Positions 1,181 to 55,809 of a stretch of DNA of 55,809 nt are shown here, piece by piece. The stretch comes from a virus. The notes beneath the pieces are model-generated. The model had not been told where the DNA came from and did not search any database. It was given only the letters and a program-made list of their open reading frames with translations. Position numbers and translations under genes: made by a program. Positions within the stretch are counted from its first letter, which is position 1. Every line of letters starts with the position of its first letter. The stretch covers positions 1 to 55,809 of the IMG/VR virus record IMGVR_UViG_3300003690_000041. The stretch is one strand, 5' to 3'.

Positions 1181-1183
1181 AGT

Positions 1184-7804: not shown

Positions 7805-7806
7805 GT

Positions 7807-9396: not shown

Positions 9397-9399
9397 CTT

Positions 9400-10701: not shown

Positions 10702-10704
10702 AGC

Positions 10705-11511: not shown

Positions 11512-11523
11512 GACATACTCCTT

Positions 11524-11841: not shown

Positions 11842-11850
11842 AATATCCTC

Positions 11851-12539: not shown

Positions 12540-13453
12540 TATTTCACTCCACAGATGTCCAGCATATGCTTGAGCCTGTGTTGGTAGGTGTGGTTGCCCC
12601 TGACCAGTTCATGTCCCTTCTTTGCTATCTCTTCCCTCTCCGTCGAGTGGTTCAAGTAATATGTCGCCTTATCTATTGCTTCGTTTACTCCATCATACAC
12701 GATAAAATGCTCGTCAGGAACAAAGCCCACATCCTCATACCCTTCCTGGTCCCCGTTGGACATCATCGCTGTCCCCGTAGACATCACTTCAAAGAATCGC
12801 ATATTGAGGTCGTCGCGTATGCTCACATTAAAACCCAGACGGGACCTAATATAACGCACCGCCATGTCTTCCCAGAAGCCACTGATGGTGAGCCACGAAT
12901 CAGGGAATGCCTTGAACATAGCATCCAGGTAATTGATCCTGTTATGGTATCCAGGCTCATCAGGTGGGTCTTGCATAAAACCCACAAAGGCGAGATCGTG
13001 CTGTTTCTCCAGCCCCCTGTCTCCACAGTGGTGGTCTTTCTCTGGATGCACCATCATCTCGCTGTAATTGGGGTGAGCAGGGGGGTGACACGCCAACGGC
13101 AACCAAAAGGCTTTCTCTATACCATCTTCGCGCATCTTTACAGCACCCGCCTTTTGCGCCGTAAATACGTAATCGAAGTCTCTGGCCCACGATAACCTCC
13201 TGTCATAGCCGAGGTGTGTGTCTATCAACCATATGGCATTGGGCTTGGGAGGTGTCCAGTCGATATCGTCGCGTCCGTCATCTATCTGTATGTTCAGAAC
13301 ATGTTCTGAGACATTGATACCGGGACGAGAATACCTCTTCATCTCCAGTCCCATTCCGTGACCGTGACCACGGATGTCTCTCAAGGCGTCCCAGACCAGG
13401 ACACCCGTGCCGTTATTTCTTACCTCTGCATTATAGAAAAGGCCTATAGACAT
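12539..13453 (-). CDS. Glycosyltransferase, GT-B / CgeB-like (304 residues)
   Basis: MSIGLFYNAEVRNNGTGVLV begins an N-terminal Rossmann-like half with NAIWLIDTHLGYDRR. The C-terminal half has the features of group-1 (GT4-type) transferases and CgeB-like proteins: HDLAFVGFMQDP, SIRDDLNMRFFEVMSTGTAM, then EGYEDVGFVPDEHFIVYDG and EREEIAKKGHELVRGNHTY. These enzymes move a sugar from a nucleotide donor. It is the last of a five-gene sugar and methyl cassette and overlaps the GT2-methyltransferase gene by 10 nt. A copy of the phage palindrome lies inside it at 13,294. Likely modifies virion proteins or host surface. Confidence 0.75.
   Translation of the reverse strand: MSIGLFYNAEVRNNGTGVLVWDALRDIRGHGHGMGLEMKRYSRPGINVSEHVLNIQIDDGRDDIDWTPPKPNAIWLIDTHLGYDRRLSWARDFDYVFTAQKAGAVKMREDGIEKAFWLPLACHPPAHPNYSEMMVHPEKDHHCGDRGLEKQHDLAFVGFMQDPPDEPGYHNRINYLDAMFKAFPDSWLTISGFWEDMAVRYIRSRLGFNVSIRDDLNMRFFEVMSTGTAMMSNGDQEGYEDVGFVPDEHFIVYDGVNEAIDKATYYLNHSTEREEIAKKGHELVRGNHTYQHRLKHMLDICGVK
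13294..13309. promoter_or_regulatory. Copy of the dispersed palindrome inside the glycosyltransferase gene
   Basis: TCAGAACATGTTCTGA, a perfect 16-bp palindrome, read as SEHVL in the protein. It is the only exact copy in the late region. Confidence 0.6.
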
Positions 13454-14691
13454 GGCGTAGCGACAACCCCGAAGTTGCCACCGTAGAACTCACTATGGTC
13501 TTCAACAGACCATCCTGCGGTAGTCAGTATGTTAGTAAGGCTTTGCGGTGTGAAAGCATGGACATGGGTATAGTCCACGATCATCGTGTCAAGGCGAGAT
13601 ACATCAGGGGTGGTGATCACCATATGACCATCATCCTTCAATACCCTGCGCCATTCTGTCAATGCCTCTATGGGGTCTATGAGATGTTCAAATACGTGGA
13701 GGGCGACGATGTAGTCGACGCAATGGTCTTGCATAGGGATATTCAATCCATCAGCGGTAATATTGGGATTAGCGCCCAGCGTCTTCTGCCTTCCTGACCC
13801 TGTCTCATTTATCTTCCGCTGGTCTACGCCAATTAACCCCTCAATACGGTCATTCCCGCATCCTACATTTAACCCTCTTCCCTCTCCAAATAATTCGATA
13901 TGGGCATTCGCCCACTCTCTCTCCTCATCAAATCGTTCTGTATTAGGAATAGGATTATAGGGGATAGTCTTGGAACACAGCGTGTCATACCACTTCCTGA
14001 CACCGTGTCTACGTATAAGGGCGTTATTTGTCATGTCCTGATGATTGAAGCTGTCCCAGCCAGGACGCACCCTACGGCCCGTCTGCTGGCCTATATGATG
14101 AAGATAGCAGCTTCTCTGAACAATCAACTTATATCCTGCGTCTATGATCTTTATCGACCAGTCAAAATCATCCCCTCCCGGCAGGGTCTCATCCAACCCG
14201 CCAATCTCTTTGAGCAAATCCGTGCGTATGATCACACAGAAACCAATCAACAAAGTGGATTCATGAATCATAGGTAATTTGATATTCCATAGGTTCTGTG
14301 ACCCCATCACAAAATTGCTCACAGGACCGACTGCCCCCACAGAAGGATCTGAGAAAGGCTGAACCATCTTACGCCAAAATCCTCCATCATTCGGCAGGAA
14401 GACTACATCATCGTTCAACAAACAAACAAAAGGGGTGTCGCAGTTCTTCAAAGCGAGGTTATGTGCAGCCATCCATCCCAGATTAGTCCCCGCGTGGATG
14501 ACATCAATTTCTCCGAAGTCCGTCCCTGCTACCGCCTCATCCAAATACTGACGAGTGGTGTCCAAACCGTCGTTGTTGATGACTGTGAGGTGATACGGAA
14601 ATTCAGTATAACGAACCAACGAGTTGAGACAATCATTCAACTGCTTGGGGTTACGGTAAGTGGGTATTTGTATTGTGACAATCGGGTCCAT
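13444..14691 (-). CDS. Bifunctional GT2 glycosyltransferase - SAM methyltransferase fusion (415 residues)
   Basis: Residues 1 to about 240 are a GT-A family 2 transferase: VTIQIPTYRNPKQLNDCLNS, HLTVINNDG, AGTNLGWMAAHNLALK and the metal/nucleotide motif CLLNDDVVFL, then LIGFCVIIRTDLLKEIGGLD. Residues from about 275 are a class I methyltransferase: GLNVGCGNDRIEGLIGVD (motif I), MQDHCVDYIVALHVFEHLID and EWRRVLKDDGHMVITTP, as in Methyltransf_11. One chain could therefore add a sugar and methylate it or a neighbour. 1-2 nt spacing or overlap with both neighbours shows one operon. Confidence 0.85.
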   Translation of the reverse strand: MDPIVTIQIPTYRNPKQLNDCLNSLVRYTEFPYHLTVINNDGLDTTRQYLDEAVAGTDFGEIDVIHAGTNLGWMAAHNLALKNCDTPFVCLLNDDVVFLPNDGGFWRKMVQPFSDPSVGAVGPVSNFVMGSQNLWNIKLPMIHESTLLIGFCVIIRTDLLKEIGGLDETLPGGDDFDWSIKIIDAGYKLIVQRSCYLHHIGQQTGRRVRPGWDSFNHQDMTNNALIRRHGVRKWYDTLCSKTIPYNPIPNTERFDEEREWANAHIELFGEGRGLNVGCGNDRIEGLIGVDQRKINETGSGRQKTLGANPNITADGLNIPMQDHCVDYIVALHVFEHLIDPIEALTEWRRVLKDDGHMVITTPDVSRLDTMIVDYTHVHAFTPQSLTNILTTAGWSVEDHSEFYGGNFGVVATPCL

Positions 14692-14692
14692 A

Positions 14693-15223
14693 TCAAGCCT
14701 TTATAATAGCCATAGCGCCACAGGACTCATCCGATGTCCTAAGAGGGAGCCAGTGGTAATCGTTGATAAAATCAATAATTGCTTCTGTCATCGTAGGTCC
14801 TTCTTCCATCTCTTTCTTCGGGTAGTTGGCAAGACCATTATATCCATTGTGGAATCCGTTTGTGTCTTTGAAGGCTACGGTATCGTGCATACAGATGACG
14901 GCACCTTCTCTGGTGTACTTGTCCAGGGCTTCCAATTCTTTCTTCAGCGTCCACCCATTGTGATCGGTATCCACAATAGCAAATTCAATCTCCGTGTTCC
15001 CCTGTATCTCCAGGTAAGAAACACCCGTTATCCATTCGACATTATCAAGCCGTTTGATATGATCTGGACACTTTCCGATATCTATCGCCACCACAGGAAC
15101 CATCGAAGCAAGAGCTTTTGTGTTCTTCCCTCCTGCTGCACCCAGTTCCAGCACCCACGAAGGCTTATGTGTCTCGATCAGTTCTTTCACATTTAAATTC
15201 TTATCCCAATGCCCCTGGAACAT
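14693..15223 (-). CDS. Class I SAM-dependent methyltransferase (176 residues)
   Basis: The motif I region is SWVLELGAAGGKNTKALASM, followed by VVAIDIGKCP, EIEFAIVDTDHNGWTLKKEL and GAVICMHDTVAF, the arrangement of the Methyltransf_24 group that often sits in sugar-modification clusters. No target-recognition domain is visible. The start overlaps the preceding 66-residue gene by about 30 nt. Expected to methylate a sugar or small molecule in the same pathway as the adjacent transferases. Confidence 0.75.
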   Translation of the reverse strand: MFQGHWDKNLNVKELIETHKPSWVLELGAAGGKNTKALASMVPVVAIDIGKCPDHIKRLDNVEWITGVSYLEIQGNTEIEFAIVDTDHNGWTLKKELEALDKYTREGAVICMHDTVAFKDTNGFHNGYNGLANYPKKEMEEGPTMTEAIIDFINDYHWLPLRTSDESCGAMAIIKA

Positions 15224-15393
15224 AACATCTCCATATATTCAGGATCGCCCGCAAACATCGTGCATACATCTTCTTCGTCTAATGCTTTTATCAAACAAGT
15301 CTGACATAAGTTGTAATCCTTGACCCCCGGCTTACCGTGGTTGATCTGCACATGAAAGCCGCCGTCAGCATCACAGCGAAAACAGGGACTCAC
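15193..15393 (-). CDS. Small zinc-binding protein (66 residues)
   Basis: Two CxxC knuckles (MSPCFRCDADGG and NLCQTCLIKAL) make a compact zinc ribbon. It overlaps the glycosyltransferase before it by 4 nt and the methyltransferase after it by 31 nt. Possibly a small cofactor of the modification cassette; otherwise unknown. Confidence 0.65.
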   Translation of the reverse strand: MSPCFRCDADGGFHVQINHGKPGVKDYNLCQTCLIKALDEEDVCTMFAGDPEYMEMLCSRGIGIRI

Positions 15394-16217
15394 ACAACCT
15401 CCATATATCGCTCGTATGCTTCCGGGTTCTCTTTTCTGTTCCTCTCATAAGCCTGTTCTCCAAACCAACGGGGCCTATGTGCCGCGTGCATCGTTTTCAC
15501 CGATGTGTCCATATATCTCGGAATACCACTTTGGTGACACCGGACACAGAACATCCAGTCTTCACCACACCCCGTCGAATAAAACCAAGGCTTACCAAGC
15601 TGACGGAATACACTCATATTGAACAATACCACGCCAGCACCAAAGCCCAGAGAGCCACCTATGTCTTCGCCACCTATAAGCTGGTCCTTCGGGTAATCCA
15701 ATACCTGATCGCTCTTGTAAACAATGCCCTTTTCTTCATATACTTCACGGACACGATAGATGACAGGAAGGACAGGCTCTCTGGAGGTGAAAGCCAATGC
15801 AGCACATACGGGCTTATTGTGTCTCCATAGACGCAAGAACATCGACCAGTCAAAGAGCATATCATCGTCCCACATCAACAGCCATTCATACCCTTCTGTA
15901 AGGGCAGACTCTACAAGGCGCTCGCGAGCAAGACCAGGGAGGGAAAGTCCTCCCTGGTTGCATTGCCCAAATTCAAATATCACATCATCTTTCAGGGTGA
16001 TCTCAGCGCCTGCATCGTGGTAGAGGTCGAGCTTCCGTAGGCCATTCAATGCGTCTACCTGCATTGCAGAGCCGTGGTTGTCACCGATCCAATTGAGCCA
16101 TTCGCAGCGTTCCTGCAACCTACCCAAATAGTGACACATCTCAAAATATCTGGGATATGTATTCACATCTGGACCATTATACCACGGGAAGCCCAGCATC
16201 ACCTTTACTCGCCTCAT
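15390..16217 (-). CDS. GT-A glycosyltransferase-like protein (275 residues)
   Basis: Starts MRRVKVMLGFPWYNGPDVN. The acidic metal-binding motif EWLLMWDDDMLFDW at about residue 115 and the later LGFGAGVVLFNMSVFRQLG, then YSTGCGEDWMFCVRCHQSG, match the order of GT-A glycosyltransferases (donor DxD, acceptor loop, catalytic acidic residue ED). The C-terminus is basic and aromatic. ATGA overlap with the 49-residue gene upstream. First enzyme of the cassette lodged between head and tail genes. Confidence 0.75.
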   Translation of the reverse strand: MRRVKVMLGFPWYNGPDVNTYPRYFEMCHYLGRLQERCEWLNWIGDNHGSAMQVDALNGLRKLDLYHDAGAEITLKDDVIFEFGQCNQGGLSLPGLARERLVESALTEGYEWLLMWDDDMLFDWSMFLRLWRHNKPVCAALAFTSREPVLPVIYRVREVYEEKGIVYKSDQVLDYPKDQLIGGEDIGGSLGFGAGVVLFNMSVFRQLGKPWFYSTGCGEDWMFCVRCHQSGIPRYMDTSVKTMHAAHRPRWFGEQAYERNRKENPEAYERYMEVV

Positions 16218-16363
16218 CCGTAAATCGCCTTCCAGAGGTCTTTAGCCTCTTTTTCAGATAAACCACCGCCCCTATCTTTGTTCCTGATCCAGGCAAGGAC
16301 TGCTTTCATCGTCGGATCAACGACTTTCACCGTTGCTTTTTTGGCGAGTTTGACTTTAGCCAT
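16214..16363 (-). CDS. Small basic protein (49 residues)
   Basis: ATG at 16363 with a GGGGAAAG site upstream; stop overlaps the next ATG (ATGA). Sequence MAKVKLAKKATVKVVDPTMK leads into a short helical end (LSEKEAKDLWKAIYG). Too short for family assignment; the tight overlap supports it as real. Confidence 0.6.
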   Translation of the reverse strand: MAKVKLAKKATVKVVDPTMKAVLAWIRNKDRGGGLSEKEAKDLWKAIYG

Positions 16364-16375
16364 TCGATCTTTCCC

Positions 16376-16807
16376 CTATTTGATGAGACCCAACCAGCGC
16401 ACCTTCATGTAGTCCCAGAAGGTGGTCTGTGTTGCTCGCTTATACCTGTGCCCCTTATGCTTGGAGTACCTATCCGTGCCATTAGACCAAAACAGGGAAC
16501 GAGGATTGCCATCCTTTACGCACGTATTACACCGCATTAGTTCCCTGCCGTCCAAATCAGCATCTACTGGTCGGATAAACCAAAAGAAGCAACTGTTGTA
16601 CAGCTTGCTATACACAGGCTCTATCATATCCAACTGCTGCTTTGTTTCCTGGAACTCAAAGCCCAGCGCCTGATATCTCTGATATAGGTCTTGATATTTA
16701 GTCTTCCAATCGGTGGTATCAAAGGTAGAGCCATTCCCAGAGTTAAGCGCATGTAGCTCGTCTTTGGATACCACCGATGGAAAACTAACTTTTGGTCCCA
16801 TACTCAT
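16376..16807 (-). CDS. Hypothetical protein with one CxxC (143 residues)
   Basis: MSMGPKVSFPSVVSKDELHA start, a helical middle (WKTKYQDLYQRYQALGFEFQ), then a compact C-terminal part with RCNTCVKDGNPRSLFW and a basic aromatic end. The single CxxC with nearby histidines may bind zinc. Starts 3 nt after the decoration-protein gene. Virion or head-associated by position only. Confidence 0.6.
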   Translation of the reverse strand: MSMGPKVSFPSVVSKDELHALNSGNGSTFDTTDWKTKYQDLYQRYQALGFEFQETKQQLDMIEPVYSKLYNSCFFWFIRPVDADLDGRELMRCNTCVKDGNPRSLFWSNGTDRYSKHKGHRYKRATQTTFWDYMKVRWLGLIK

Positions 16808-16810
16808 CTT

Positions 16811-17239
16811 TTACATAGCCCTCACCCAACTACGAAAATACGTATTCGCGCTGGTAGTGATGGTTTCCAAAGCAATCACAGGGCCATACGTGTCGTCAAG
16901 GCCTGTGCTGTTGACGCCGAGGCTGGCTACTTCGCCAGGACCACAAGCGTCGTCAAGCGTCAGCGTGACAAAGCTGCCCACACCAAAGGCAAGCGTAGAG
17001 GCAGCATACCCGGAAAAGATCACTCGACCGGATGCCGTATCAGCGATGTCTTCAGCAGCAATACCAGCGAAAGAACGGCGATTGTTGTCTTGCGACAATA
17101 CCGCGTTGTTCCCGTTGACAGAAGCTGCAAGTGTGCAGATAGACACCGCATTGCCCGTGGTGAGGGTTTGTCCCGCCACGTTTGTTACGTCGCCATACAT
17201 CACTTCAGCGCCTGATTCATTGACCACAGCGGTCTGCAT
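16811..17239 (-). CDS. Probable capsid decoration protein (DUF2190-like, 142 residues)
   Basis: Small, acidic and beta-rich: GDVTNVAGQTLTTGNAVSIC, then FAGIAAEDIADTASGRVIFS and GYAASTLAFGVGSFVTLTLD. The VxxGxxL...GVA..DI...G.V...G pattern is that of DUF2190-type capsid cement proteins, which bind the outside of the head lattice. It follows the major capsid gene directly, as those genes usually do. Confidence 0.68.
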   Translation of the reverse strand: MQTAVVNESGAEVMYGDVTNVAGQTLTTGNAVSICTLAASVNGNNAVLSQDNNRRSFAGIAAEDIADTASGRVIFSGYAASTLAFGVGSFVTLTLDDACGPGEVASLGVNSTGLDDTYGPVIALETITTSANTYFRSWVRAM

Positions 17240-17266
17240 AATTTACCTCCTAAACAACATAATCAA

Positions 17267-18262
17267 TTAGGTTACTCCTGTCAGCTTGCCCAGCTTGCGC
17301 CGATTGTTTGCAAGCATATTACCCATGAAGAGGATCTGTGTCACCAACGAGTCCTGGTTGACGGGCTTCTGCAAGCCGTCATCAGCCTGGGTGAAGTTGG
17401 CATCTTCGTGGACATACAGGAAAAGGTGGTTCAGATTGAGCACGTAGACCGTCCCAGAAGTGCAATAATCAGACCAGATGAAGTCAGACCCCTTAAACTT
17501 GAGGACGTTGATACCTGCATCTGCACCGCCTGCGGGGTTCTGCTCATAGCGCACCTGTGGCTGGAGCAGGGCCTCATACGACTCATGAATGGTTCGTGTC
17601 GTAACGAGCAAGTTGGGGCTTGAGTCCGTGCCCTCTGCTCCTTGCGAACACTGGTTCCAGACAGACCGCATCTTGGGAACCAAGTTTACCGCTGCTGCAC
17701 CCACAGAAGCAGCCACCTTGTTGGCCCACGCAGTATTTGCGGTAGGCACAGAAGCGTAGCTGGTAGTCCCTGTGACTGTTTCAATGGCAGCTTCCAATCC
17801 AGTAATATTCTTGGAGGCATTGCCAGTTCCATCAGAATACATCCCTGTGGTGATCACATCGTTGAGAGACTTCGCTGCATTGTTCAGTCGCTCATCCAGC
17901 AAGCCAAAGAGCCTGGACTCATTGGACTTGTTGACACGCATCTCGCGTCCTGAGATGACCACAGAGGCAGAGTATTGCTTCCAGGCGAACATACCCGATG
18001 TCTGCGTCTGCTTACGCGTGACATCTAGAGCATCGAGATCCTCATAGGATTTCGCCGTTCCATTCTTTGCGTAATCAATGCTGATACGCATACGTTCACC
18101 GCCGTCAACGATTTTCAACTGCCCACCAGCACGCATACGTCGCGTCAATGGTGAAGCATCAAAGATGGTGTCCTGCACCACCCCTGTCATCATCGTGTTT
18201 TCGAGGGTAGACGCCAGAAGAGAACGAATAGTCCTGGTATCGGTAGTGTCTGTATTAGCCAT
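17267..18262 (-). CDS. Major capsid protein (331 residues)
   Basis: An N-terminal helical segment (TRTIRSLLASTLENTMMTGV) leads into QDTIFDASPLTRRM..GG, a start typical of HK97-fold capsid proteins without a long delta domain. The core has RMRISIDYAKNGTAKSYEDL, FAWKQYSASVVISGREMRVN, NAAKSLNDVITTGMYSDGTG and later NLLVTTRTIHESYEALLQPQ, KFKGSDFIWSDYCTSGTVYV, NLNHLFLYVHEDANFT. Order portal - zinc ribbon - scaffold - this gene - decoration protein supports the call strongly. Confidence 0.9.
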   Translation of the reverse strand: MANTDTTDTRTIRSLLASTLENTMMTGVVQDTIFDASPLTRRMRAGGQLKIVDGGERMRISIDYAKNGTAKSYEDLDALDVTRKQTQTSGMFAWKQYSASVVISGREMRVNKSNESRLFGLLDERLNNAAKSLNDVITTGMYSDGTGNASKNITGLEAAIETVTGTTSYASVPTANTAWANKVAASVGAAAVNLVPKMRSVWNQCSQGAEGTDSSPNLLVTTRTIHESYEALLQPQVRYEQNPAGGADAGINVLKFKGSDFIWSDYCTSGTVYVLNLNHLFLYVHEDANFTQADDGLQKPVNQDSLVTQILFMGNMLANNRRKLGKLTGVT

Positions 18263-18273
18263 TGCTAATAACC

Positions 18274-19200
18274 CTATCTATTGATAGAAGTCTCCGCAGC
18301 ACGGCGAGCTTTGGACATTACATCAGAAATTCGAGCAAACCCTTTGGGCTTACTGACCTCTTTGTAATCGTCAGGATTATAGAGGTCAGGGAATGTCTCC
18401 CCGCCAGCATTCCGCATACCAACGGTTCCGTTGATAGCCTGCCGAACACGCTGACCATTGTTTGCCTTGAACTCCTTGATCGCTTCGTTGCGCCCCTGCT
18501 GACTAGCAGAGGATATCAAAGCATCGAAATGCGACAACTTATACAGGTCTTCAAAAGTGAGGTTTTGCTCGTTGACGAGGCGGTTGTAGTATGGCTGCAT
18601 ATTGTCTTTAGCCGTCTGGTTGATATTGAACGTATCACCATCCAAAGAGCCGAAGTCATCACCAAAACGAGCCACGGCAGCTTTGTTGGTCTCTGTCACC
18701 TGCTCAGAACGGGCCATCTCATCCAACTCATCTTGTCGGACATATCCGTTTGTTCTCAGGTAGGCATCAAGCAACTCGATCTGCGCGGGGTCTACATTGG
18801 CGAGGTTTTCGGCAACAGGATCAGGCTCTGCATCCATTTCTGCTGTCACCTCATCACGCAACGCTTCCACTTCAGCAATTGAATCCCGTAGCTGACGCTG
18901 CAACGACTCGTTCTGATTTCCTTGTACAAAGTCGCGCTGCATACCACGGACAACTTCGTAAGCGTTATCGCCTAACTGCTCACGGACTTCCCTCAATACA
19001 GTGTCAATACCCGGACGCCCGGAAGAGGTATTCTCGCCTCCAGAACCACCTTCAGCATCCTCGTCGGCACCTTCGCCATCTTGTGGGGTTGTTTCGGTTT
19101 CCTGGTCTTCGGTTTCACTCACTTGATCCTCGACCTGTCCTTTCATCTCTGCGACGGTTTCAAGGACTTCTGGAGCGACCTGAAGGGGAATATGATTCAT
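18274..19200 (-). CDS. Scaffolding-like head protein (308 residues)
   Basis: Acidic and largely helical: EVLETVAEMKGQVEDQVSET, then a low-complexity acidic linker (GEGADEDAEGGSGGENTSS), a central coil (LQRQLRDSIAEVEALRDEVT) and a short positively charged C-terminus. Scaffold proteins typically have this acidic helical body with a basic end that contacts the capsid, and lie immediately before the capsid gene as here. No protease motif seen. Confidence 0.72.
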   Translation of the reverse strand: MNHIPLQVAPEVLETVAEMKGQVEDQVSETEDQETETTPQDGEGADEDAEGGSGGENTSSGRPGIDTVLREVREQLGDNAYEVVRGMQRDFVQGNQNESLQRQLRDSIAEVEALRDEVTAEMDAEPDPVAENLANVDPAQIELLDAYLRTNGYVRQDELDEMARSEQVTETNKAAVARFGDDFGSLDGDTFNINQTAKDNMQPYYNRLVNEQNLTFEDLYKLSHFDALISSASQQGRNEAIKEFKANNGQRVRQAINGTVGMRNAGGETFPDLYNPDDYKEVSKPKGFARISDVMSKARRAAETSINR

Positions 19201-38192: not shown

Positions 38193-39032
38193 ATGCAAGA
38201 GAAAGAGATCAGGCTGATAATAGACAGCTTCTATTCCATCCAGCACCTGCGCATAGAAATAGGCAACAGAATGAAGATGCTGGTGCGAGACTACCCAGAA
38301 GAAGTAACGGAAGAAAAAGCAGGTGAGTTACACGAAATGATCAGTGGCAACCTGATTCGTACAGAAAAAGAGATAGAGAAAAGGGTGCGTGCTTTTATCA
38401 AACCACTACCCCTCTACCAACTGTGGCTCAAGCCACACGTAAAAGGGATAGCTGAATTGCTGGGTGGTGCCCTCATTGCTGCCATTGAAGACATCGGTAA
38501 ATTTGACACGGTGTCCAAGCTGTGGATATATTGTGGCATAGGGCTAAAGCCTGCCCTGGACAAAGAAGGTAACCCATTACTCGATGGGGATGGCAACATC
38601 CTATATGAGATACAGCGCAAGAAGAAAGGAGAAAAGATAAACTACTCCCCTTTCCTGAAAACCCTGTGCTGGAAGATAGGGGAATCATTCGTGAAGACAG
38701 GGACGCGTGGGTTCTACGGGGATATGTATAAGAAATACAAAGAAAGGGAGACAAGGAAACAAGCAAGAGCAGGTGTTCAGATCGTTGCTGAAGGGGATGC
38801 ACAAAAGCTCAGGAAGGAGGGGAAGAAAGCAATAGGTAAGGCACACATACATAACAGGGCCAGGAGAAAGGCTGTTAAACTGTTCCTGAGCCACCTATGG
38901 GAGGTATGGAGAGAGATAGAAGGGTTGCCCACGCGTGTCCCCTATGTGATAGAGCATCAGCCTGACACGGGAGTGACACATCATTACATTGATCCACCGG
39001 GGTGGCATCTGGAAAAAGATAAGGGAGACTAA
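38193..39032 (+). CDS. IS110-family transposase_20-like helix-hairpin-helix protein (279 residues)
   Basis: Residues 85-120: LKPHVKGIAELLGGALIAAI, then EDIGKFDTVSKLWIYCGIGL, the helix-hairpin-helix pattern of the Transposase_20 (IS110/IS116/IS902) C-terminal domain. Further on, SPFLKTLCWKIGESFVKTG, FYGDMYKKYKERE and HNRARRKAVKLFLSHLWEVW keep the order of that family. The N-terminal DEDD RuvC half is missing and the usual Q/K-SG serine loop is not seen, so it is probably a DNA-binding relic or domesticated protein rather than an active recombinase. It follows the iteron array and an operator. Confidence 0.72.
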   Translation: MQEKEIRLIIDSFYSIQHLRIEIGNRMKMLVRDYPEEVTEEKAGELHEMISGNLIRTEKEIEKRVRAFIKPLPLYQLWLKPHVKGIAELLGGALIAAIEDIGKFDTVSKLWIYCGIGLKPALDKEGNPLLDGDGNILYEIQRKKKGEKINYSPFLKTLCWKIGESFVKTGTRGFYGDMYKKYKERETRKQARAGVQIVAEGDAQKLRKEGKKAIGKAHIHNRARRKAVKLFLSHLWEVWREIEGLPTRVPYVIEHQPDTGVTHHYIDPPGWHLEKDKGD

Positions 39033-44313: not shown

Positions 44314-47300
44314 TTAAATATTATATCCAAGCTCGCGGTATTTCTGACGAATCCTTTGAATCTTATCGCGATACCTGTACACCTTGCTTCTCTCCGCCTC
44401 CTCAACATCCACCTGTATAGCCTTGATACCAAAGACCTCACCCAGAATCTGAGAAGCACCCTGTCCCTTACGCGCCTTATCCGCAAACCTATGCATCTTA
44501 CCCAGAGGGGGAAACAATGTCTCCATAGCGTGCTGCGCCTTGCGAGACACTTTTATATCTGTCCCACCGACACCCGTTTCCATGGGCTGTCCTGCAAACT
44601 TCTCTATCGGTCGGTCAAGGAAGATAGAGTAGCCCCTACCCCCTTCACCCATAGCCCACTCAAAGGGCAGCTTCACAAAAGGAGAGAGGCTCGACAGGGC
44701 ATCCTGCCAGTTCATTCTGTTCAGGTCCTGAAAAGGATAGTTCGGGTTGATAAACACTGGCTGGAGGCCTGTCGGGACAGACTGTGCCCCCGTCACCTTA
44801 GCCATCACGTCGTCAAAGGTCTGGTTCATCGTCTGCACGAAGTCAGCGACCTCTTTAGGTGCTCGCACCGCGTGTAACTCCTGGAAGTAATCCGGTGTAG
44901 GCACATCCCTCCAGTCTTCCGATAAACTCTCTATAGCGTCAATAGGCTTACCCGTCATAGCAGCGTACCTGCCGGGGTTCTCAAAGATAGCCTGAAACTG
45001 GAGGGGTATGTTCTTGCGCATCCACGTATAGAAAGGAACAAACGCTTTCATAATCTCACGCTCAAACTGCGTAAGCTCACCATAGTCAAACAGGTATTTC
45101 TTCACACTCAACGCTGCCTCTTCCGCGCTCATCCCGTCACCAATCTTCTGTATCCAATGGGCCAGCCGTGCATGACTCTCCACCTTCTCGCCTATCCGTC
45201 TGTTGAACTGTAAGACAGGGTTGTTCACGCCAAAGGCCTTGTTGAGCAGACCAAGGGCGTCCCTCTCTCTCGCTGTCTCCGACACCCCCTTGAGCAACTC
45301 CCTGCGTGTGGTGTCTTTGCCTTCAACAGAACGGATCACCCTGTCCAGGGTGTCCCCCTTGGCATTGCTCACATCAGCGAGGTATTTGTCAAAGCCACTC
45401 TTCCCTCCCTTTTTCCACAGGTTGCCAAATACCTCTGCCTCTACTTGCTCAGGGATGTCAGAGGTGAACAGACCACGCTCTACCACCTTGAACCTACGGG
45501 CAGCACGGATGATGTCCTGGCCCTTCAATACCTCGTCACCGACCTTGAGGCTGATATTGTCTCCCTTGCCAAAGACAAGGGCAAGGGCTTTGGCGTAAGG
45601 GGCAGGATTGGGGACCATCAAGCCACCCACCTTCTTGAACCCTACGCCAGCCAGCATATTATTGAAGATATTGGACTGCATATTCCTGGCGTGATATCCA
45701 GGAGAGGCCAATGCCCACCCTTTCCACGGCATCTGCATCGTGCGCATCATATTGAAGAACTGCTTGGTCTCGTCGTGCCTGTTGGACATGATATTGTCAG
45801 CGAGATTCAATTCATCAATGAACTGACGGGGCAACACATATGCGGGATTGACGTTGAAGGGGTTGACAGCCTCGCTCTTGCTGAACTTCACGACATCATC
45901 GACTCCCTGCTTGATAGCCTCTATCCCGTCATCCGTGGTCTTGGACACCGTATATACGATGCCCTCGTCATCCATAAACCGTGTCCCCTTCTTCAGCTTT
46001 GCCACACTGGTCATATCAGTCACCTCACCCATCGTCCCACGGAACGGCCTCCACGCACTATACCCTATCTCTCCCAATGAATTACGAAACGACTCCGCCT
46101 GCTCAAATAACTGACGCCCCGTGTCATCTCCAAATTCAGACATCAACTCATCCAAGGACTTACCACTGCCACCCTTCTTCATCGTTTCCAACAACTGGGG
46201 ATCTACGATCTTGTAAGATACGCTGGGATCAGACAATACCGAGTCAATAAACCGCTGTGTCGCCCGCGCACGCACAGACTCCAGACCACGGAGGGCAAAC
46301 TGTGCGCCGGGGTCCAACTCCGTGCCAATAGAAGCGACCACCCGATGCTCCAGGGTATTCAGTTTCTTCGCCTTCGTAAAGATAGGCGCTGCCTGTCCCA
46401 GCTTGGCTGCTTCCTGTGCTACACTGTCGGAGAACTCAAACAACTGGTCCTCTTCAGGCAGTCCCAACTTAGCCATCAGGCTCTTATGCTTGCGTACAGA
46501 AGTTGCACCCCCATACCGTCCAGGTGCATAATCTGCACGTAGGATACCCTCGTCAAATATACCCCCCTGCAATTCCTTGTCTGCCAGATCCTTGTATGCC
46601 CCCCTGAAAGCCTGAAACTTACCCTGTAGGTGTTCCATCAAACGGGGGTCTCCCGCTGTCACATCACGCAAGATAGCCTCAAAATGATCAGGGGTCTTGT
46701 CCAGATACAGGCCCAGGAACTTGGACTCCGTAGGCGACAGATTGGACCTCAATTGGACGGCAAGGTCTCGGATCTCTACGGCACCCTCTGCCACGGCACC
46801 CTCTCTCTCGCTCAGGCCACCCAGGAATTTGTCCACAGACTCTTGCATACGTGGGTGCTTGCGTGCCAGTTCCTGCAATTCGAAATGGGGCACCAGTTTC
46901 CTACCTAGAGCACCTCTCACTCCTTTGATCCCAGGAAGATCCACGAAGGGCATCGCCAGGGACTTAATACCGCCCCCTGCGAGGCGAAGTCCTGCTCCAC
47001 CCAACCATGTGGTAGGGTCTAAAACAACGTCTAAGACGAAGCCTGCTGCTGCTGTGGCGTATTCGTTGTGTCGACCATCCTCAAAAGGGGCGAATTCAGC
47101 CCTCTCCAGCACATCACGGAAGGAAGCACGCGTAGGGTCGACACCCGTAAGCGCCAGAGCATCCGCCTCATCAACAAAGGGAAGCGCATTCAAGAACTCA
47201 GCACTCGCCCGCTTCAGCGCCTCTTTGCCATTACCCGTCCTCTGTAACTCCAAGGCAGCACCCGCTGTGGTGAACTGACCAATCTGTAGAAGGTCGAACA

Positions 47301-47592
47301 GCGGGTGAGTAAACGTCTTCAGCGCCTCGCCCGTCCTGTCCCACACGCTACCCAGCGCCTGGACAAACCCCTCTGGGTTGTCCAGCATCTGGTCAAAGCG
47401 ACCTCCCTGTAACTCCTGTTCCAGGGCATCGTCACCAATGGCACGACGTAGCTGCCTCTCTCCCCTGATAGAAGCATTTCGTGCAGCACGCATAGCCCTG
47501 CGCTGCCTAATAGTAAGAGGAGCAGTAAAGAAATCTGTCTCCTGCTGTTGCTCCAGGTCTTTTGCTACCATGTCAGAGAAGTCTTCAGGCAT
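44314..47592 (-). CDS. Large virion / ejection-type protein (1,092 residues)
   Basis: MPEDFSDMVAKDLEQQQETD start, overlapping the preceding gene by 1 nt. N-terminal helical basic part (RQRRAMRAARNASIRGERQL), then hydrophobic Gly/Ala segments (YATAAAGFVLDVVLDPTTWL; GGAGLRLAGGGIKSL) typical of internal proteins that enter the envelope. Further on MQMPWKGWALASPGYHARNM and NIFNNMLAGVGF, a motif I know from large phage structural proteins, and a long helical region. No transglycosylase motif was recognised. Last gene of the late operon. Confidence 0.72.
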   Translation of the reverse strand: MPEDFSDMVAKDLEQQQETDFFTAPLTIRQRRAMRAARNASIRGERQLRRAIGDDALEQELQGGRFDQMLDNPEGFVQALGSVWDRTGEALKTFTHPLFDLLQIGQFTTAGAALELQRTGNGKEALKRASAEFLNALPFVDEADALALTGVDPTRASFRDVLERAEFAPFEDGRHNEYATAAAGFVLDVVLDPTTWLGGAGLRLAGGGIKSLAMPFVDLPGIKGVRGALGRKLVPHFELQELARKHPRMQESVDKFLGGLSEREGAVAEGAVEIRDLAVQLRSNLSPTESKFLGLYLDKTPDHFEAILRDVTAGDPRLMEHLQGKFQAFRGAYKDLADKELQGGIFDEGILRADYAPGRYGGATSVRKHKSLMAKLGLPEEDQLFEFSDSVAQEAAKLGQAAPIFTKAKKLNTLEHRVVASIGTELDPGAQFALRGLESVRARATQRFIDSVLSDPSVSYKIVDPQLLETMKKGGSGKSLDELMSEFGDDTGRQLFEQAESFRNSLGEIGYSAWRPFRGTMGEVTDMTSVAKLKKGTRFMDDEGIVYTVSKTTDDGIEAIKQGVDDVVKFSKSEAVNPFNVNPAYVLPRQFIDELNLADNIMSNRHDETKQFFNMMRTMQMPWKGWALASPGYHARNMQSNIFNNMLAGVGFKKVGGLMVPNPAPYAKALALVFGKGDNISLKVGDEVLKGQDIIRAARRFKVVERGLFTSDIPEQVEAEVFGNLWKKGGKSGFDKYLADVSNAKGDTLDRVIRSVEGKDTTRRELLKGVSETARERDALGLLNKAFGVNNPVLQFNRRIGEKVESHARLAHWIQKIGDGMSAEEAALSVKKYLFDYGELTQFEREIMKAFVPFYTWMRKNIPLQFQAIFENPGRYAAMTGKPIDAIESLSEDWRDVPTPDYFQELHAVRAPKEVADFVQTMNQTFDDVMAKVTGAQSVPTGLQPVFINPNYPFQDLNRMNWQDALSSLSPFVKLPFEWAMGEGGRGYSIFLDRPIEKFAGQPMETGVGGTDIKVSRKAQHAMETLFPPLGKMHRFADKARKGQGASQILGEVFGIKAIQVDVEEAERSKVYRYRDKIQRIRQKYRELGYNI

Positions 47593-49212: not shown

Positions 49213-50067
49213 TTATTCTCCTGTTGTTTTTCTCCCAAATATTTTTCTTGTTGGTTCTGATCCTTTGTATGGTAAGACTTCTACTTTACAGCCCTTTTGT
49301 ATAAATTGAGACAACTCCAACATATCATTATTGAACATTCTAACACATCCATGCGAAATAAATCCTTGGTTAATAAATTTTTCTTTTTCTTTAATCACTT
49401 TATCGGGTTCATACTGACCATGAATTAAAAACGGATTTCTATCTTTATAAAAAGATAAAGACATACGCATTTTAAAAGGCCCTTCTTGCCTTGGACCAGT
49501 TGGTCTTTTCTGTATCTGTATAATCTCCCCAATACCAGTAGGGGTGAAATATTTTTCCCCGTATCGCTTGCCAGTAATATCGCCTGTGCCAACATGGTAA
49601 CCACGAACCTCATTTCCTTGCTCATCTAAAAGACGCATCGTATTAGTATTCGGATCAATTACTATTGAGTACAAACCTTGAGGATCAGCAAGGTCTTGCA
49701 ATGCTTTTTGTGTAAAAGTAGTAACCGAATCCTCGGAAACGTTTCCAACTTGTTCTTCCGTCATTTCTTTTAGACGAGCAACAACAGGGTCAAGAGGCAA
49801 GTCAGAACTTTCCAACCTAACATCTTCAGGTTGAGGAAGTTCTACAGGTAATTGTAATCGCACCTTTGGTCGTATTAATATTTTATCAAGTCCAATATTG
49901 CTTGGAGTAATCTCTGTGTCTTCAGGGAAGACTATTACTAATTCTTCTTCAAGTGGGATTGATGGACGTATTTGATCAAGTCCAATATTACTTGGAGTAA
50001 TTTCTATGTCTTCAGGGAAATCTTCTGACTTAATTCCTTCAAGTGGGATTGATGGACGTATCGAGTC
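49213..50067 (-). CDS. L,D-transpeptidase (YkuD) domain encoded in the +1 frame, probably as a frameshift extension
   Basis: The open frame begins inside the end of the 590-residue gene; no ATG with a ribosome site exists, and the first in-frame GTG (49863) lacks one. Before the domain are two copies of a 40-residue repeat (IRPSIPLE..EDFPED.EITPSNIGLD), proving the region is coding upstream of that GTG. The domain has YSIVIDPNTNTMRLLDEQGN, an IHG histidine and the catalytic GFISHGCVRMFNNDM motif (Ser-His-Gly-Cys). YkuD enzymes cross-link or remodel peptidoglycan; a virion role in wall penetration is plausible. Confidence 0.8.
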   Translation of the reverse strand, partial: DSIRPSIPLEGIKSEDFPEDIEITPSNIGLDQIRPSIPLEEELVIVFPEDTEITPSNIGLDKILIRPKVRLQLPVELPQPEDVRLESSDLPLDPVVARLKEMTEEQVGNVSEDSVTTFTQKALQDLADPQGLYSIVIDPNTNTMRLLDEQGNEVRGYHVGTGDITGKRYGEKYFTPTGIGEIIQIQKRPTGPRQEGPFKMRMSLSFYKDRNPFLIHGQYEPDKVIKEKEKFINQGFISHGCVRMFNNDMLELSQFIQKGCKVEVLPYKGSEPTRKIFGRKTTGE

Positions 50068-50082
50068 AAAGAAACCTCCCCG
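50063..50082 (-). promoter_or_regulatory. prfB-like +1 ribosomal frameshift site
   Basis: Reads GGG AGG TTT CTT TGA CTC: a Shine-Dalgarno-like GGGGAGG, one codon, CTT, the stop TGA and then C. In E. coli prfB it is AGG GGG TAT CTT TGA C, same spacing. A shift would skip one U and continue GAC TCG ATA into the transpeptidase frame. Confidence 0.75.
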
Positions 50083-51838
50083 ACCCTTGCTGAAGGTCAG
50101 TTTTTATGGTGTCTGGTTGAATACTTGATGGCGATGGAGGACCCTGTGGTAGTTCACTTGATGGCGATGGAGGACCCTGTGGTAGTTCAGGAGAGCCAGG
50201 AAGTAGGCGGTTCTCCTGATCAGGAATTGTCTGGGGTTTAGAAGGTATCCTGAGACCTGTATCCGGCTTAGGGATACGCTTCATCTTTTCCTCGTCGTGT
50301 ATATTATCCAATACGCTCCTAGCGTAGTCTACGTGTGCTGGTTCATCTTGTGATTGTTTAGTAGTCAAGTCAAGAATGTTTTCTTTCTCAATCCTTACAG
50401 ATGGAAACTTATCGGCGTGGGTGTCCACGTACTGACTCGCCAAATCAAACAGTTTCTGTGCCACAGCAAAACTCATATCATGGTGTTGTGAAGAAGAAGC
50501 CATATTGAAAATACTGTCTCTCATAGCCTGTCTATCTTCGGAAGTAAAGTCTTTACCCTGTGCTATCATCTGATCAATTCTACTCTTCCACCCCTGTGAC
50601 CCAATGAATTTATTCCTTGCTGTGTCTCCTTCGGGGTCATTAGATGATGGCGGTCTGAGTGTCTCTATTAACTGGCTATGATATTTTTCCCTCTCGGCGG
50701 CACGCATTCCAGAATCAGGAAAAAGGTTACCAGCAGTAGCATCCCAGCGAAGCAACGCGTTTGTTATTTTTTCTTCTGTGGTATACTTTCTCATCTCAGC
50801 AGCACGACTTAACATTTTTGCTTCTTCAGCACTTCCCACTTTGATTTGATCAGGAGATTTATCAATACCCAATGAAAGAAGTGCCGCTGCTTGATATGAC
50901 CATTGATTATCGGCAGCCAGAAAAGTAGCTATTCTCAATCCCCTATCCGTCGCATTCTTGTAAGCAGATAGTTCAGTCTCACGAAGATTTTTGTCAAGAG
51001 TAAATTGAGTCAATGCATCATCTGTTTCCCTCTCATATAAGGCCCGGTCTCTTGTAGCCTTGATCAATTCTCTCTGTGTGGGCTTTTCTGTAGTTTCAAG
51101 CAGTAACCCTAAAGCATCAGGATCTTTACTGATTTGTTTCAATTTAGTGAAGAAATCAGCCTCTTTTTCATCAACAGCAGCAACAATAAGATCATTCAAA
51201 TAACCTATATCTTCGTCTGTTACATGCTTTCTTTCCTCTGAAGAAAAGAAATCCTCGATATTAACATTAGGACGCCCTGATTGTATTGCCGTGACAATCA
51301 TTTTCTCTTTTGCGTCAGCAATAAATAACGACCTTTTTTTAGCCATTGCATTCCGTTGTCTATTTGCTTCCTCAGGAGTAATGAAATTACTGAATTCCAT
51401 CCGTTGCACAAGATCGAGAAACGTATCCCATTCTCCTGCTTTCAAAGCCTCGGTTTTACGCCTCTCCGCTAAATCCCTCTCCCCCAACAGGCCCTGACGC
51501 TGCTGCTCTGCGAACTGTGCCTCCTTTACATTGCGCTTCTGTTCGCCTCGAATGCCAGCAGTAATACCCTTAGACAAACCAGTCCCCAGAGCAGCACCAA
51601 ATTCAGCACCTTTGCGACCTTTGACCAACGCACCAATACCAGTCCCGATCAACGGAGCCAGAATAGCAGCCCACTTCAACTTACCGCCAGAGTCAAATAA
51701 TTGGTCTGCTTTGACGCTAGCAGGTATCCCCGACTGCGCAGGGGCAGCCTGTGTCGGTGGAACCTGTGGAAGTATGTTCTGGGTAGGAGACTGAGGCTGA
51801 AGCTGAGTCTGAGTCTGAGTAGGAGGATTAGACGCCAT
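50066..51838 (-). CDS. Virion protein with frameshift-extendable end (590 residues; 874 if extended)
   Basis: Pro/Gln-rich start (MASNPPTQTQTQLQPQSPTQ), then a glycine-zipper-like hydrophobic segment (AAILAPLIGTGIGALVKGRK; GAALGTGLSKGITAGI) near residues 55-95, long charged helices, and a Pro/Ser tail with the repeat SELPQGPPSPSS. Ends GSGRFL at a prfB-like frameshift site. Such a membrane-active segment plus a wall enzyme in one chain fits a cell-wall-penetrating ejection protein. Its ATG overlaps the end of the 82-residue gene. Confidence 0.75.
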   Translation of the reverse strand: MASNPPTQTQTQLQPQSPTQNILPQVPPTQAAPAQSGIPASVKADQLFDSGGKLKWAAILAPLIGTGIGALVKGRKGAEFGAALGTGLSKGITAGIRGEQKRNVKEAQFAEQQRQGLLGERDLAERRKTEALKAGEWDTFLDLVQRMEFSNFITPEEANRQRNAMAKKRSLFIADAKEKMIVTAIQSGRPNVNIEDFFSSEERKHVTDEDIGYLNDLIVAAVDEKEADFFTKLKQISKDPDALGLLLETTEKPTQRELIKATRDRALYERETDDALTQFTLDKNLRETELSAYKNATDRGLRIATFLAADNQWSYQAAALLSLGIDKSPDQIKVGSAEEAKMLSRAAEMRKYTTEEKITNALLRWDATAGNLFPDSGMRAAEREKYHSQLIETLRPPSSNDPEGDTARNKFIGSQGWKSRIDQMIAQGKDFTSEDRQAMRDSIFNMASSSQHHDMSFAVAQKLFDLASQYVDTHADKFPSVRIEKENILDLTTKQSQDEPAHVDYARSVLDNIHDEEKMKRIPKPDTGLRIPSKPQTIPDQENRLLPGSPELPQGPPSPSSELPQGPPSPSSIQPDTIKTDLQQGSGRFL

Positions 51839-52089: not shown

Positions 52090-55000
52090 TTATATAAGGG
52101 CAGCAGCACCAATAGCACTACCTGCCTGGATTAGTGAATTAAGGAACCCGTTGCCCCCACCGCCAGACTGAGGGATATTTCCGCCAAATGATACATTGCC
52201 AGAAGGGAACAGAGTAGCAAGAGAAAGAGAGGCAAGAGCCATACGCTCTTTGGAGTCTATTTCCACTAACGCATCTATTGCCTTATTTACATGCTGGAAA
52301 TTATTAGGATCAAAATGCTCTGGTTCCATCTGCTGTGTCACAACGTTCCACGTATCATAACTACGGGGAATAAGCCCCATCTCTACGGCTAACTGAGCCA
52401 TCGTCTTGCTACCTGCATCATCCAGTCGGCCCAGTTCCTTTTCTGCCAACTGACGCTGCAACGAATCTGAACTGGCACCAGGGATCGCATCACCGTTAGC
52501 ATCATACACAGCAGCCAACTCAATGCCTCCCAATGCATTGACCGTCCACATCCTCTGTCCGAAAGTGGTATTAAACTGCCTCGCCTCTTCCGTCATAGCT
52601 TGACGTGTGTTGGCAAGGGCATTGGCGACTTTTGAGTGCTCTATTCCGAGAGCCGTAGAAGCCTGTCCTATCTCTGCATTTTGCCTCTGTCTGGTAAGTT
52701 CCAGACCTCTCTCTTCTATCGTAAGCCTACCCTCAAGGACGCCATCTGAATTGGCCTGTTTAGCGAAAGAAATAAAGTCCTCGAAAGCGATCACGCCGTC
52801 GTGGTCAAAGTCAAACTCAGGAGAAAAGTTAGGATCGCCTGCCTGTGATAGATAAGACCCCATAAACTCATCAATAGTGGCTCCGTTACTGGAGCCGAAT
52901 ATCTCCGCTACGCGCATCGAATCAATGGCCTTGTTCTCTCTGATGGCCTCATCAAGGCGTCTGTCTTCCAAAGCAATTCCCTTGTCAGCCTGTGACTTCG
53001 CTTCAAAGAACTGCTCCCTGGACAGGTTGAACGCATTGGCGTTGTCTTTGGCCCTCTGTGCTGCCTCTATGTCGAACTCCCGTCTGTTCTCCAGCAGTCC
53101 GTCTTCTTGCAGGCCCAGACTGACAAGGCCCAAGTCCCTTCTAAGAGCGAAGTCATGCTCTTGCAGGTTCATCCCTCTGGCTTCCAGGTCTTTGCGCAAC
53201 TTCAACTCCTCTTCATTGAGGTTGAGACCTCTCATCTCTGTCCTCTCCCTCAGCTTCAACTCTTCCTGTTTCAACCTCTGGTCTCTGGTGCTCATTGTAG
53301 CAGTAACGCCACCTTTGGGACCAAACACAGCACCCGTCAAATCAGCAGCAGGCAACGTCTGCGTCACCCTACGGAAATTGCCTGAAACAGGATTAAGGTC
53401 AAACCCTGCATTAGCAGCTTTCGTAACAAAATCGTCCGTTAGGGGAGTAACAGGGAATCCCAGAGCCTTTTGCAAAACCTCTACGTCCACCTCTTCACCC
53501 ACCAGAGCACCTGTAAGACCCGATTCCTGCAATCGTCTGAGATCATCTTGCCCCAACAGACTAATCTGTTGACCAATGGCCCCCTGGACAAATCCCCGTG
53601 CTGCCAGTTCAGCCTGTTCTCTGGACTCCTGTGCCCCTATCAAAGCACTAAGGTCTTCACGGCGTCCTTCTCTCATCCTCTGTGTCTTTTCCCGTGCCAA
53701 AGCAGACTCTTCTGCCAACTGTTGCTGCCCAATGGTCCCCAGGAGGCGCGTAGCATTGCCTGAGCCACCTTCTCCCGATATACCCACCAAACGGGACACC
53801 TGATCTCTGAGGGCGTCAGATCGCGTCTTGATCTCTGTGAGACGTGTGGCAAATTCAGTCGCTATCTGTGCATCTACTGTCCCTATCCCTATCTCTTTAG
53901 CAATATCACCGATTTTCGTTTCCATAAGTGAACGAGGATCTCTACCAAATACTTTTGCATTTTGCATTTTGCCTTCGGCGTCCTTACCAATACCTCCGTA
54001 AATTTTTCCTGGTGTAAGATCAGCCTGTGCTTGCACAGCAGAGGCTGTGTCTCCCCTTAATCCTGCAAGACCACCCTCTTGTCCTGCTCCCGTAAAGGGT
54101 GTTTTTATAGGGTCTACCACTCCGACCTTTTCACCTTCGGTCTCTACACCTTCGATCTTTTCACCAGGAATTCTAAATTCTTTTACCAATTTATCCCCTG
54201 TTCCAACGTTAACTTTTGTGCTTCCTATGTTACCAATATCCAAATTATCGGTATCCAAATCAGGCTCAGTCCCTACACCACCTACACCCAATCCAGGAGC
54301 AGTCCCTGGTTTATCTACTACCGGGATTCCAAGCACACGGCTTGGTTGGGTGACAACTGGAGTAGGAACTGTTGCTGTCTGTGCAGGTAAGGATGTACGA
54401 ATTGAGATAACGTTTCCATCTTCATCAAGCTGTGGAACAGGTGGAACAGGTGGAACAGGAAGAGGCTGTTGACCAAATATAGCGCCACCTCTACCCGCAT
54501 AGGTAGTAAAAGGAGAAGGAGGGGGTTTGGTCGGGTCAAAAACACCCGCAACCTGACCTCCTGCACCAGGACCCGCAGCAGGCAGATCCGGCTTGCCTAC
54601 AGGGTATTGAGCTTTGAGACTCCCTTGTACAGGAAAAGGCTGTACGCCACCGGGAGGAGGTTGAGTCCCATCACCACCATCACCACCAGGAGGAGGTTGA
54701 CGACTACCAGGAACAGGTACACGGTTTCCTTTAGCATCAATATAATATTTATATCCACCTTCATAGTCTGTTAGAATTGGTTCTCCATTAGGCCCAACGG
54801 TTGGAGCTTCACTAACAATTACACTTTCTTTTGTCTTAGCATCAATATAATATCTATTTCCATATTCATCTGTTTGAATTAGTTCTCCATTAGGCCCAGT
54901 AGTTGAAGCAGGATCAGTTGTCCCACCATCACCACCGAGGGGAGGGGGAGGAGGTTGAGTCCCACCATCACCACCGGGAGGGGGTTGAGTCCCACCATCA

Positions 55001-55809
55001 CCACCGGGAGGAGGTTGAGTCCCATCACCACCGGGAGGAGGTTGAGTCCCATCACCACCATCACCACCAGGAGGAGGGGAAGGGTGAGGAGTTTTTGGAA
55101 CGTTACCAACATTTACACGTTGTCCTGTAATTTTATTAATATAAAATGTAAATCCATATTCATCTGTTTGAATTGGTTCTCCATTAGGCCCAACGGTTGA
55201 AGGAGGATCAGTTGTCCCACCACCAGGAGGAGGAGGAGGTTGACCAACATTTACACGTTGTCCTGTATTAGCATCAATATAATATTTATATCCACTATCA
55301 TCTGTTAGAATTGGTTCTCCATTAAGCCCAACGTTTGAAGCAGGATCAGTTGTCCCACTACCAGGAGGAGGAGGAGGAGGAGGTTGAGTCCCACCGTCAC
55401 CACCAGGAGGAGGAGGAGGGGGTTGAGTCCCACCATCACCACCAGGAGGAGGCGGAGTAGCCTGCCAGTCCGGATGCGTATAGCCGCCAGCGTTGTCGTC
55501 CTGGTATCCACCAGACTCCTGTATGTATTTCCGATACCCCTCCATACCTCCCTTGTCGTAGGCCTGCTGGGCACCTGCCTGAGTAAAGCCACCCGGCACG
55601 GTGCTGTCACCAAGGCCACTGGGAGGTCCAACATTCGTGACGGTTATGTTGGTTGGTTGCCCACCGTCACCACCAGGAGGAGGAGGGGGGGGAGCCACAG
55701 CACCACCAACAGAAAAAGGTGGTTGACCACCAGGAAAAGGAACAGACGATAAAGGGGGGTAAGTCCCACCGTCACCACCGGGAGGAGGAGGAGGGGGGGG
55801 TTGAGTCCC
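52090..55809 (-). CDS. Giant proline-rich repeat virion protein, C-terminal part (runs off the right edge)
   Basis: Open to the window edge; the GTG at 55698 is in frame but not a real start. Six or more VGPNGEPI.TD..G..YYIDA.T modules alternate with PPPPPGGDGG linkers up to about 54.5 kb, followed by Gly/Thr-rich segments and then more than 400 residues of charged coiled coil (KQEELKLRERTEMRGLNLNE; ALRRDLGLVSLGLQEDGLLE). A perfect EF-hand loop DFDHDGVIAFED lies in the coil region (about 52,780-52,820). The C-terminus is Gly/Ala hydrophobic. Very likely continuous with the 1-1,180 fragment. Confidence 0.82.
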   Translation of the reverse strand, partial: GTQPPPPPPPGGDGGTYPPLSSVPFPGGQPPFSVGGAVAPPPPPPGGDGGQPTNITVTNVGPPSGLGDSTVPGGFTQAGAQQAYDKGGMEGYRKYIQESGGYQDDNAGGYTHPDWQATPPPPGGDGGTQPPPPPPGGDGGTQPPPPPPPGSGTTDPASNVGLNGEPILTDDSGYKYYIDANTGQRVNVGQPPPPPGGGTTDPPSTVGPNGEPIQTDEYGFTFYINKITGQRVNVGNVPKTPHPSPPPGGDGGDGTQPPPGGDGTQPPPGGDGGTQPPPGGDGGTQPPPPPLGGDGGTTDPASTTGPNGELIQTDEYGNRYYIDAKTKESVIVSEAPTVGPNGEPILTDYEGGYKYYIDAKGNRVPVPGSRQPPPGGDGGDGTQPPPGGVQPFPVQGSLKAQYPVGKPDLPAAGPGAGGQVAGVFDPTKPPPSPFTTYAGRGGAIFGQQPLPVPPVPPVPQLDEDGNVISIRTSLPAQTATVPTPVVTQPSRVLGIPVVDKPGTAPGLGVGGVGTEPDLDTDNLDIGNIGSTKVNVGTGDKLVKEFRIPGEKIEGVETEGEKVGVVDPIKTPFTGAGQEGGLAGLRGDTASAVQAQADLTPGKIYGGIGKDAEGKMQNAKVFGRDPRSLMETKIGDIAKEIGIGTVDAQIATEFATRLTEIKTRSDALRDQVSRLVGISGEGGSGNATRLLGTIGQQQLAEESALAREKTQRMREGRREDLSALIGAQESREQAELAARGFVQGAIGQQISLLGQDDLRRLQESGLTGALVGEEVDVEVLQKALGFPVTPLTDDFVTKAANAGFDLNPVSGNFRRVTQTLPAADLTGAVFGPKGGVTATMSTRDQRLKQEELKLRERTEMRGLNLNEEELKLRKDLEARGMNLQEHDFALRRDLGLVSLGLQEDGLLENRREFDIEAAQRAKDNANAFNLSREQFFEAKSQADKGIALEDRRLDEAIRENKAIDSMRVAEIFGSSNGATIDEFMGSYLSQAGDPNFSPEFDFDHDGVIAFEDFISFAKQANSDGVLEGRLTIEERGLELTRQRQNAEIGQASTALGIEHSKVANALANTRQAMTEEARQFNTTFGQRMWTVNALGGIELAAVYDANGDAIPGASSDSLQRQLAEKELGRLDDAGSKTMAQLAVEMGLIPRSYDTWNVVTQQMEPEHFDPNNFQHVNKAIDALVEIDSKERMALASLSLATLFPSGNVSFGGNIPQSGGGGNGFLNSLIQAGSAIGAAALI

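Follow-up and report, generated by a model that had tools for sequence, protein, structure and literature searches.

A phage gene for a 590-residue protein ends in a close match to the +1 frameshift signal of prfB, the gene for release factor 2 (RF2), and the +1 frame beyond its UGA stop encodes a YkuD L,D-transpeptidase domain. We read this arrangement as programmed, RF2-sensitive +1 frameshifting of the prfB type, yielding products of 590 and 874 residues, with a probability of about 0.82. The frameshift mechanism is well supported for this gene by the features of its sequence set out below; from these we infer the shift itself and, by analogy with prfB, its dependence on RF2. The window, that is, the whole stretch of DNA analysed, is a 55.8-kb IMG/VR virus record that encodes terminase, portal, major head protein and DnaB helicase. 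The feature lies on the minus strand within the late block (Table 1); the strand was absent from the earlier note on this DNA.

Table 1. Coordinates of the frameshift feature, its surroundings and the genes compared with it.
Sequence	Feature	Coordinates	Strand	Remarks
Window	Zero-frame gene P0001, 590 codons	51838-50066	−	ATG start with SD AAAGGAGAG
Window	Internal SD-like GGGGAGG(U)	50074..50080	−	8 bp with the 16S anti-SD; ends 3 nt before CTT
Window	Slippery site and stop, CTT_TGA_C	50065..50071	−	TGA at 50068-50066
Window	+1-frame extension P0002, 284 codons and stop	49213..50067	−	No SD-bearing start codon of its own
Window	Two tandem 30-codon repeats	49888..50067	−	Period exactly 90 nt
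Window	YkuD L,D-transpeptidase catalytic domain (PF03734)	49276..49671	−	E=6.4e-17
Window	Next gene downstream, 525 codons	47592..49169	−	Own ATG and SD; context
Window	1092-codon gene	44314..47592	−	Resembles the C-terminal part of the giant protein of related phages
L090	Giant protein gene	9709-18354		
L097	Giant protein gene	11111-17197		
L098	Giant protein gene	5905-12324		
L136	C5-methyltransferase	6707-8249	+	348 + 165 codons
L228	C5-methyltransferase	9406-11500	−	304 + 393 codons
L247	C5-methyltransferase	6654-7920	+	288 + 133 codons
L257	C5-methyltransferase	64-1198	+	At least 215 + 162 codons; gene start cut off by the contig end

The 590-codon frame ends GGG TCG GGG AGG TTT CTT TGA C, with CTT TGA C in phase with the gene. 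Compared with the E. coli prfB site (AGGGGG-TAT-CTT-TGA-C), 13 of the 16 bases of GGGAGG-TTT-CTT-TGA-C are identical, and the register is that of prfB: the Shine–Dalgarno-like (SD) run, then 3 nt, then CTT, with the end of the anti-SD duplex at an equal distance from CTT. The bases that differ make for stronger pairing with the 16S anti-SD (computed duplex, −12.2 kcal/mol at the window site versus −10.7 kcal/mol at E. coli prfB). The prfB consensus consists of AGGGGG, three nucleotides, CTTT, a stop and C (PMC12421855), and GGAGG variants exist (PMC5009743). AGGAGG-type SDs are present in most of the genes of this phage that were checked, indicating that the host ribosome uses anti-SD pairing. 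After the stop, the +1 frame stays open for 284 codons, compared with only 8 in frame 0 (to the next TGA) and about 20 in −1 (to a TAG); the open stretch of the +1 frame runs from 50103 to 49213, and no long homopolymer lies around the site. These observations bear out the earlier note, which had recognized a prfB-type SD run with CTT-TGA-C at the end of the 590-residue frame and a +1 slip leading to an extended total of 874 residues.

Such a signal is rarely expected by chance. In the window, in-phase RGGRGG has a frequency of 0.0012 per codon and CTT of 0.019; with the following C taken at an assumed 0.2, the product of the three gives a chance of about 4e-6 per TGA-ended open reading frame for the whole signal. 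Across 1.4 Mb of related phage DNA (partly overlapping loci, with duplicate ends dropped by sequence context), RGGNNNCTTTGA was found at 0 of the 968 TGA ends of long frames, 16 of which end in CTT-TGA. The window contains two copies of RGGRGGNNNCTTTGA, where 0.08 would be expected. The second copy, GGGAGG-NNN-CTTTGAC at 47407-47393 (minus strand), is not a shift site, as it lies out of phase in the 1092-codon gene, where it reads GGRFD; the motif sequence alone is therefore insufficient.

The extension has no obvious start of its own. No ATG, GTG or TTG occurs in the +1 frame before GTG 49863, which is codon 69 of the extension and thus has 68 open codons and both repeats upstream, and no usable SD precedes this GTG or any other candidate start, rarer ones included. 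The transpeptidase frame accordingly lacks its own ATG and holds two protein-level repeats ahead of its only early GTG, just as the earlier note had it, and no plausible independent start, which the note had named as refuting evidence, turned up. Two candidates close to the site were also rejected: if GGGGAGG served as the SD of a transpeptidase start, the sole nearby +1-frame codon would be an ATA 13 nt away, and the TTG near GGGGAGG belongs to the −1 frame, where a stop comes after about 20 codons. Of the three frames after the stop, +1 has the best coding score (0.08 per codon versus −0.06 and −0.07), but this value lies below that of typical genes (0.29 ± 0.09), which counts against the reading.

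The repeat unit reads D-S/Q-IRPSIPLE...FPED-ITPSNIGL, and its first copy starts at the GAC after the shift. CTT precedes each repeat, with a CTT-to-CTT distance of 90 nt between the later copies and 91 nt from the site copy, so the site is the same Leu-Asp junction plus exactly one T. This extra T fits a shift signal built on the repeat unit and is likewise the basis of the main rival, a one-base indel. Synonymous and non-synonymous differences between the repeats affect 3 and 8 codons, respectively; the lack of a synonymous bias counts against the reading, although these numbers carry little information.

The YkuD domain that the earlier note had placed in the +1 frame is confirmed by a complete match to PF03734 (62.9 bits against a cut-off of 23.4; profile positions 2-146 of 146; extension residues 133-264), with the catalytic motif intact in P0002 (FLIHGQ...FISHGCVRM). 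Profile searches gave no release-factor match, so the downstream frame is not RF2. A single-sequence structure model of the extension had a pLDDT of 32, too low to be of use for judging the fold. The T6SS effector Tlde1, which has a related fold, performs both exchange and LD-carboxypeptidase cleavage (PMC9638812), and a peptidoglycan-enzyme activity is predicted for the extension.

P0001 has a glycine-rich segment near residues 57-98 and a Pro-rich C-terminal linker in which ELPQGPPSPSS occurs twice, and found no match in Pfam, PHROG, NCBIfam or tblastn searches. Its position is that of genes of 388-824 aa located before the giant gene in the late block of three related phages (L090, L097 and L098). 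The giant protein measures 2028-2881 aa, and the window's 1092-codon gene matches its C-terminal part; in the window, the region of the giant protein is divided among several genes. Position and synteny point to a probable role for P0001 as an internal virion or ejection protein. The label of virion protein given in the earlier note thus agrees with the late-block position but gains nothing from the sequence, as P0001 matched no family and showed no significant similarity to its positional counterparts (P0004, P0006 and P0008), which may be too diverged for detection. For either frame, tblastn against INPHARED and scans of IMG/VR returned no relatives. Neither P0001 nor YkuD was present in fifty phage records retrieved by way of portal and capsid, which proves little because the closest of these are short fragments without this region. 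That the site is known from one genome, with no homologue found for either frame, counts against the frameshift reading.

Elsewhere in the window, a gene at 38193-39032 (plus strand), inside the early region, matches a PHROG transposase family (3e-42), and 12539-14691 (minus strand), within the structural block, holds two glycosyltransferase genes, one with a fused methyltransferase domain. A 1202-codon gene at 52090-55698 (minus strand) matches a WW domain in Pfam (9e-8), which is unusual in a phage and may come from composition bias.

IMG/VR was scanned for the exact 16-mers GGGAGGTTTCTTTGAC and AGGRGGTTTCTTTGAC and for the looser form AGGNGGTNTCTTTGAC, whose listed matches are a lower bound and do not serve for counts. 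The motif was present at about 35-40 distinct IMG/VR sites, nearly all of them in the wrong phase and with zero-frame stretches of less than 60 codons. The exceptions, each with a long frame and a long +1 continuation, were L136, L228, L247 and L257, all of which encode C5-cytosine DNA methyltransferases split at AGGRGG-TTT-CTT-TGA-C. In the two scanned against Pfam (L136 and L228), frame 0 encodes the N-terminal part of PF00145 and the +1 frame its C-terminal part. All four come from separate samples, and their alignment runs from end to end through the junction; L136, L247 and L257 are 50-58% identical, share the alignment position of the site and have a third-codon-position excess in both parts, so that both halves look to be selected as protein. 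Among 80 relatives of the methyltransferases in bacterial genomes, none carried the split signal and 59 were single-frame by a motif test (the rest were mostly undecided), making the split form a minority.

A 687-codon glycosidase/amidase-like gene in L203 (stop at about 4085, plus strand) has AGGGGG-TCT-CTT-TGA-C at its end, followed by a 35-codon +1 tail, and may be a further case, looser than the methyltransferases. The literature searched held no report of the split methyltransferases or of L203. According to the authors of PRFect, every RECODE +1 case with a CUU-stop is prfB (PMC10885494). The earlier note's remark that the signal was known only from prfB thus fits the literature searched, but four split phage C5-methyltransferases share it, and phages would therefore seem to employ prfB-type signals in genes other than prfB. 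It is somewhat probable, though clearly less so than frameshifting in the window gene, that phages have adopted the RF2 frameshift signal at least twice, in the unrelated genes for C5-cytosine methyltransferases and for a probable ejection protein that carries an L,D-transpeptidase domain as an optional part, with an output tied to host RF2 activity at UGA.

The main rival to programmed frameshifting holds that a one-base insertion, through sequencing or assembly error or mutation, interrupts a continuous 874-codon gene and that the SD-like run is coincidental. Removal of the T that the site copy has above its sister repeats does give a single open 874-codon frame, and the source record is a metagenome-derived IMG/VR contig. 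Such an indel, however, must have hit CTT/TGA/C among some 2,600 positions, 3 nt past an in-phase GGGAGG (0.0012 for RGGRGG), where there is no long homopolymer; furthermore, the same signal stands at the point where four methyltransferases, each from a different sample, are divided. By rough reckoning, generous error rates would produce far fewer than one case in IMG/VR, against five strong cases seen, four of them in one family. We consider the insertion unlikely and retain it mainly because the window gene has no relative.

Two separate proteins, one of 590 residues ending at the TGA and a transpeptidase that starts on its own (for example, at GTG 49863) or by reinitiation, seem distinctly less probable still. 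The two frames are close together, and a start at GTG 49863 would give 216 residues with YkuD, which begins at extension residue 133, complete and wholly downstream. Neither this GTG nor any other candidate has an SD, whereas neighbouring genes do; ahead of the GTG stand 68 open codons, which include two 30-codon repeats in phase; no start codon for reinitiation is near the stop; and the prfB signal would have to be a coincidence. We give hardly any weight to TGA readthrough or transcriptional slippage in place of a +1 slip: UGAC is a leaky stop context, but readthrough would end at the TGA 8 codons on in frame 0, the −1 frame closes at its TAG after about 20, and no homopolymer is long enough for RNA polymerase to slip.

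In programmed frameshifting at this site, a ribosome on the 590-codon gene would reach CTT-TGA-C while GGGGAGGU pairs with the 16S anti-SD, and the short spacing between SD and CTT would, judging from prfB, strain pairing in the P site. RF2 would terminate at the weak UGAC to release 590 residues; alternatively, by analogy with prfB, the peptidyl-tRNA-Leu would re-pair from CUU to UUU and GAC would be read next, giving an 874-residue form that ends in the YkuD domain on a Pro-rich, repeat-containing linker. Each gene copy would thereby yield a fixed but RF2-sensitive mix of plain and enzyme-bearing forms. Because the junction is flanked on either side by Pro-rich linker that contains repeats, the shift would add a tethered domain and leave the protein body undisturbed, as in other phage frameshift extensions. 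As its position makes P0001 a probable virion or ejection protein, some of the copies in a particle would carry the peptidoglycan enzyme; a virion location of the enzyme-bearing form is plausible from this position, and an ejection protein equipped with a peptidoglycan enzyme would suit passage through the cell wall during DNA entry. The earlier note had called the extended form a minor product, a guess that found no support. Sites of the prfB type are efficient in E. coli (tens of per cent), and the shift need not be minor.

The site shares with prfB an AGGGGG-type internal SD, a 3-nt gap, CTT_TGA_C, the +1 direction and the anti-SD register (PMC12421855, PMC5009743, PMC3711429). In prfB, however, the shift takes place near codon 25, leads to the sole functional product and is part of RF2 feedback, whereas in the window it would come after 590 codons and append an enzyme to the C-terminus of a protein that is otherwise complete and is not a release factor. 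Known phage +1 shifts occur at CCC-stop (PMC5009743, PMC6316719). Like Listeria phage PSA cps/tsh and Bacillus phage SPP1 gp17.1*, the window has a phage late gene, with a +1 shift predicted at its stop codon where theirs lie at the stop or close to it (PMC5009743, PMC6316719); these two slip on proline CCC (CCC_UGA and CCC_UAA), without CUU_U and an internal SD, and their extensions are not peptidoglycan enzymes. Their C-terminally extended second forms are in the virion, as is predicted for that of the window. The methyltransferases, an unrelated protein family, differ in that the shift completes one enzyme and does not attach an optional extra domain. T7 gp16 is a phage ejection protein with a peptidoglycan enzyme. 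As for T7 gp16 and Tlde1 (PMC9638812), a particle or an injection apparatus would deliver a cell-wall enzyme, with both location and activity being predictions for the window protein. Unlike T7 gp16, the window domain is a YkuD domain and not a lytic transglycosylase, and would be attached via a frameshift.

The frameshift of prfB is a textbook autoregulatory signal. Its occurrence in phage genes suggests a portable module that, like other phage frameshifts, can fix the ratio of protein products; a signal of the prfB type would make this ratio respond to RF2. More such genes are likely to be hidden, because standard annotation breaks them in two. In the window, the signal would put a peptidoglycan enzyme on part of the copies of what is probably a virion protein, an arrangement for which the literature searched held no precedent.
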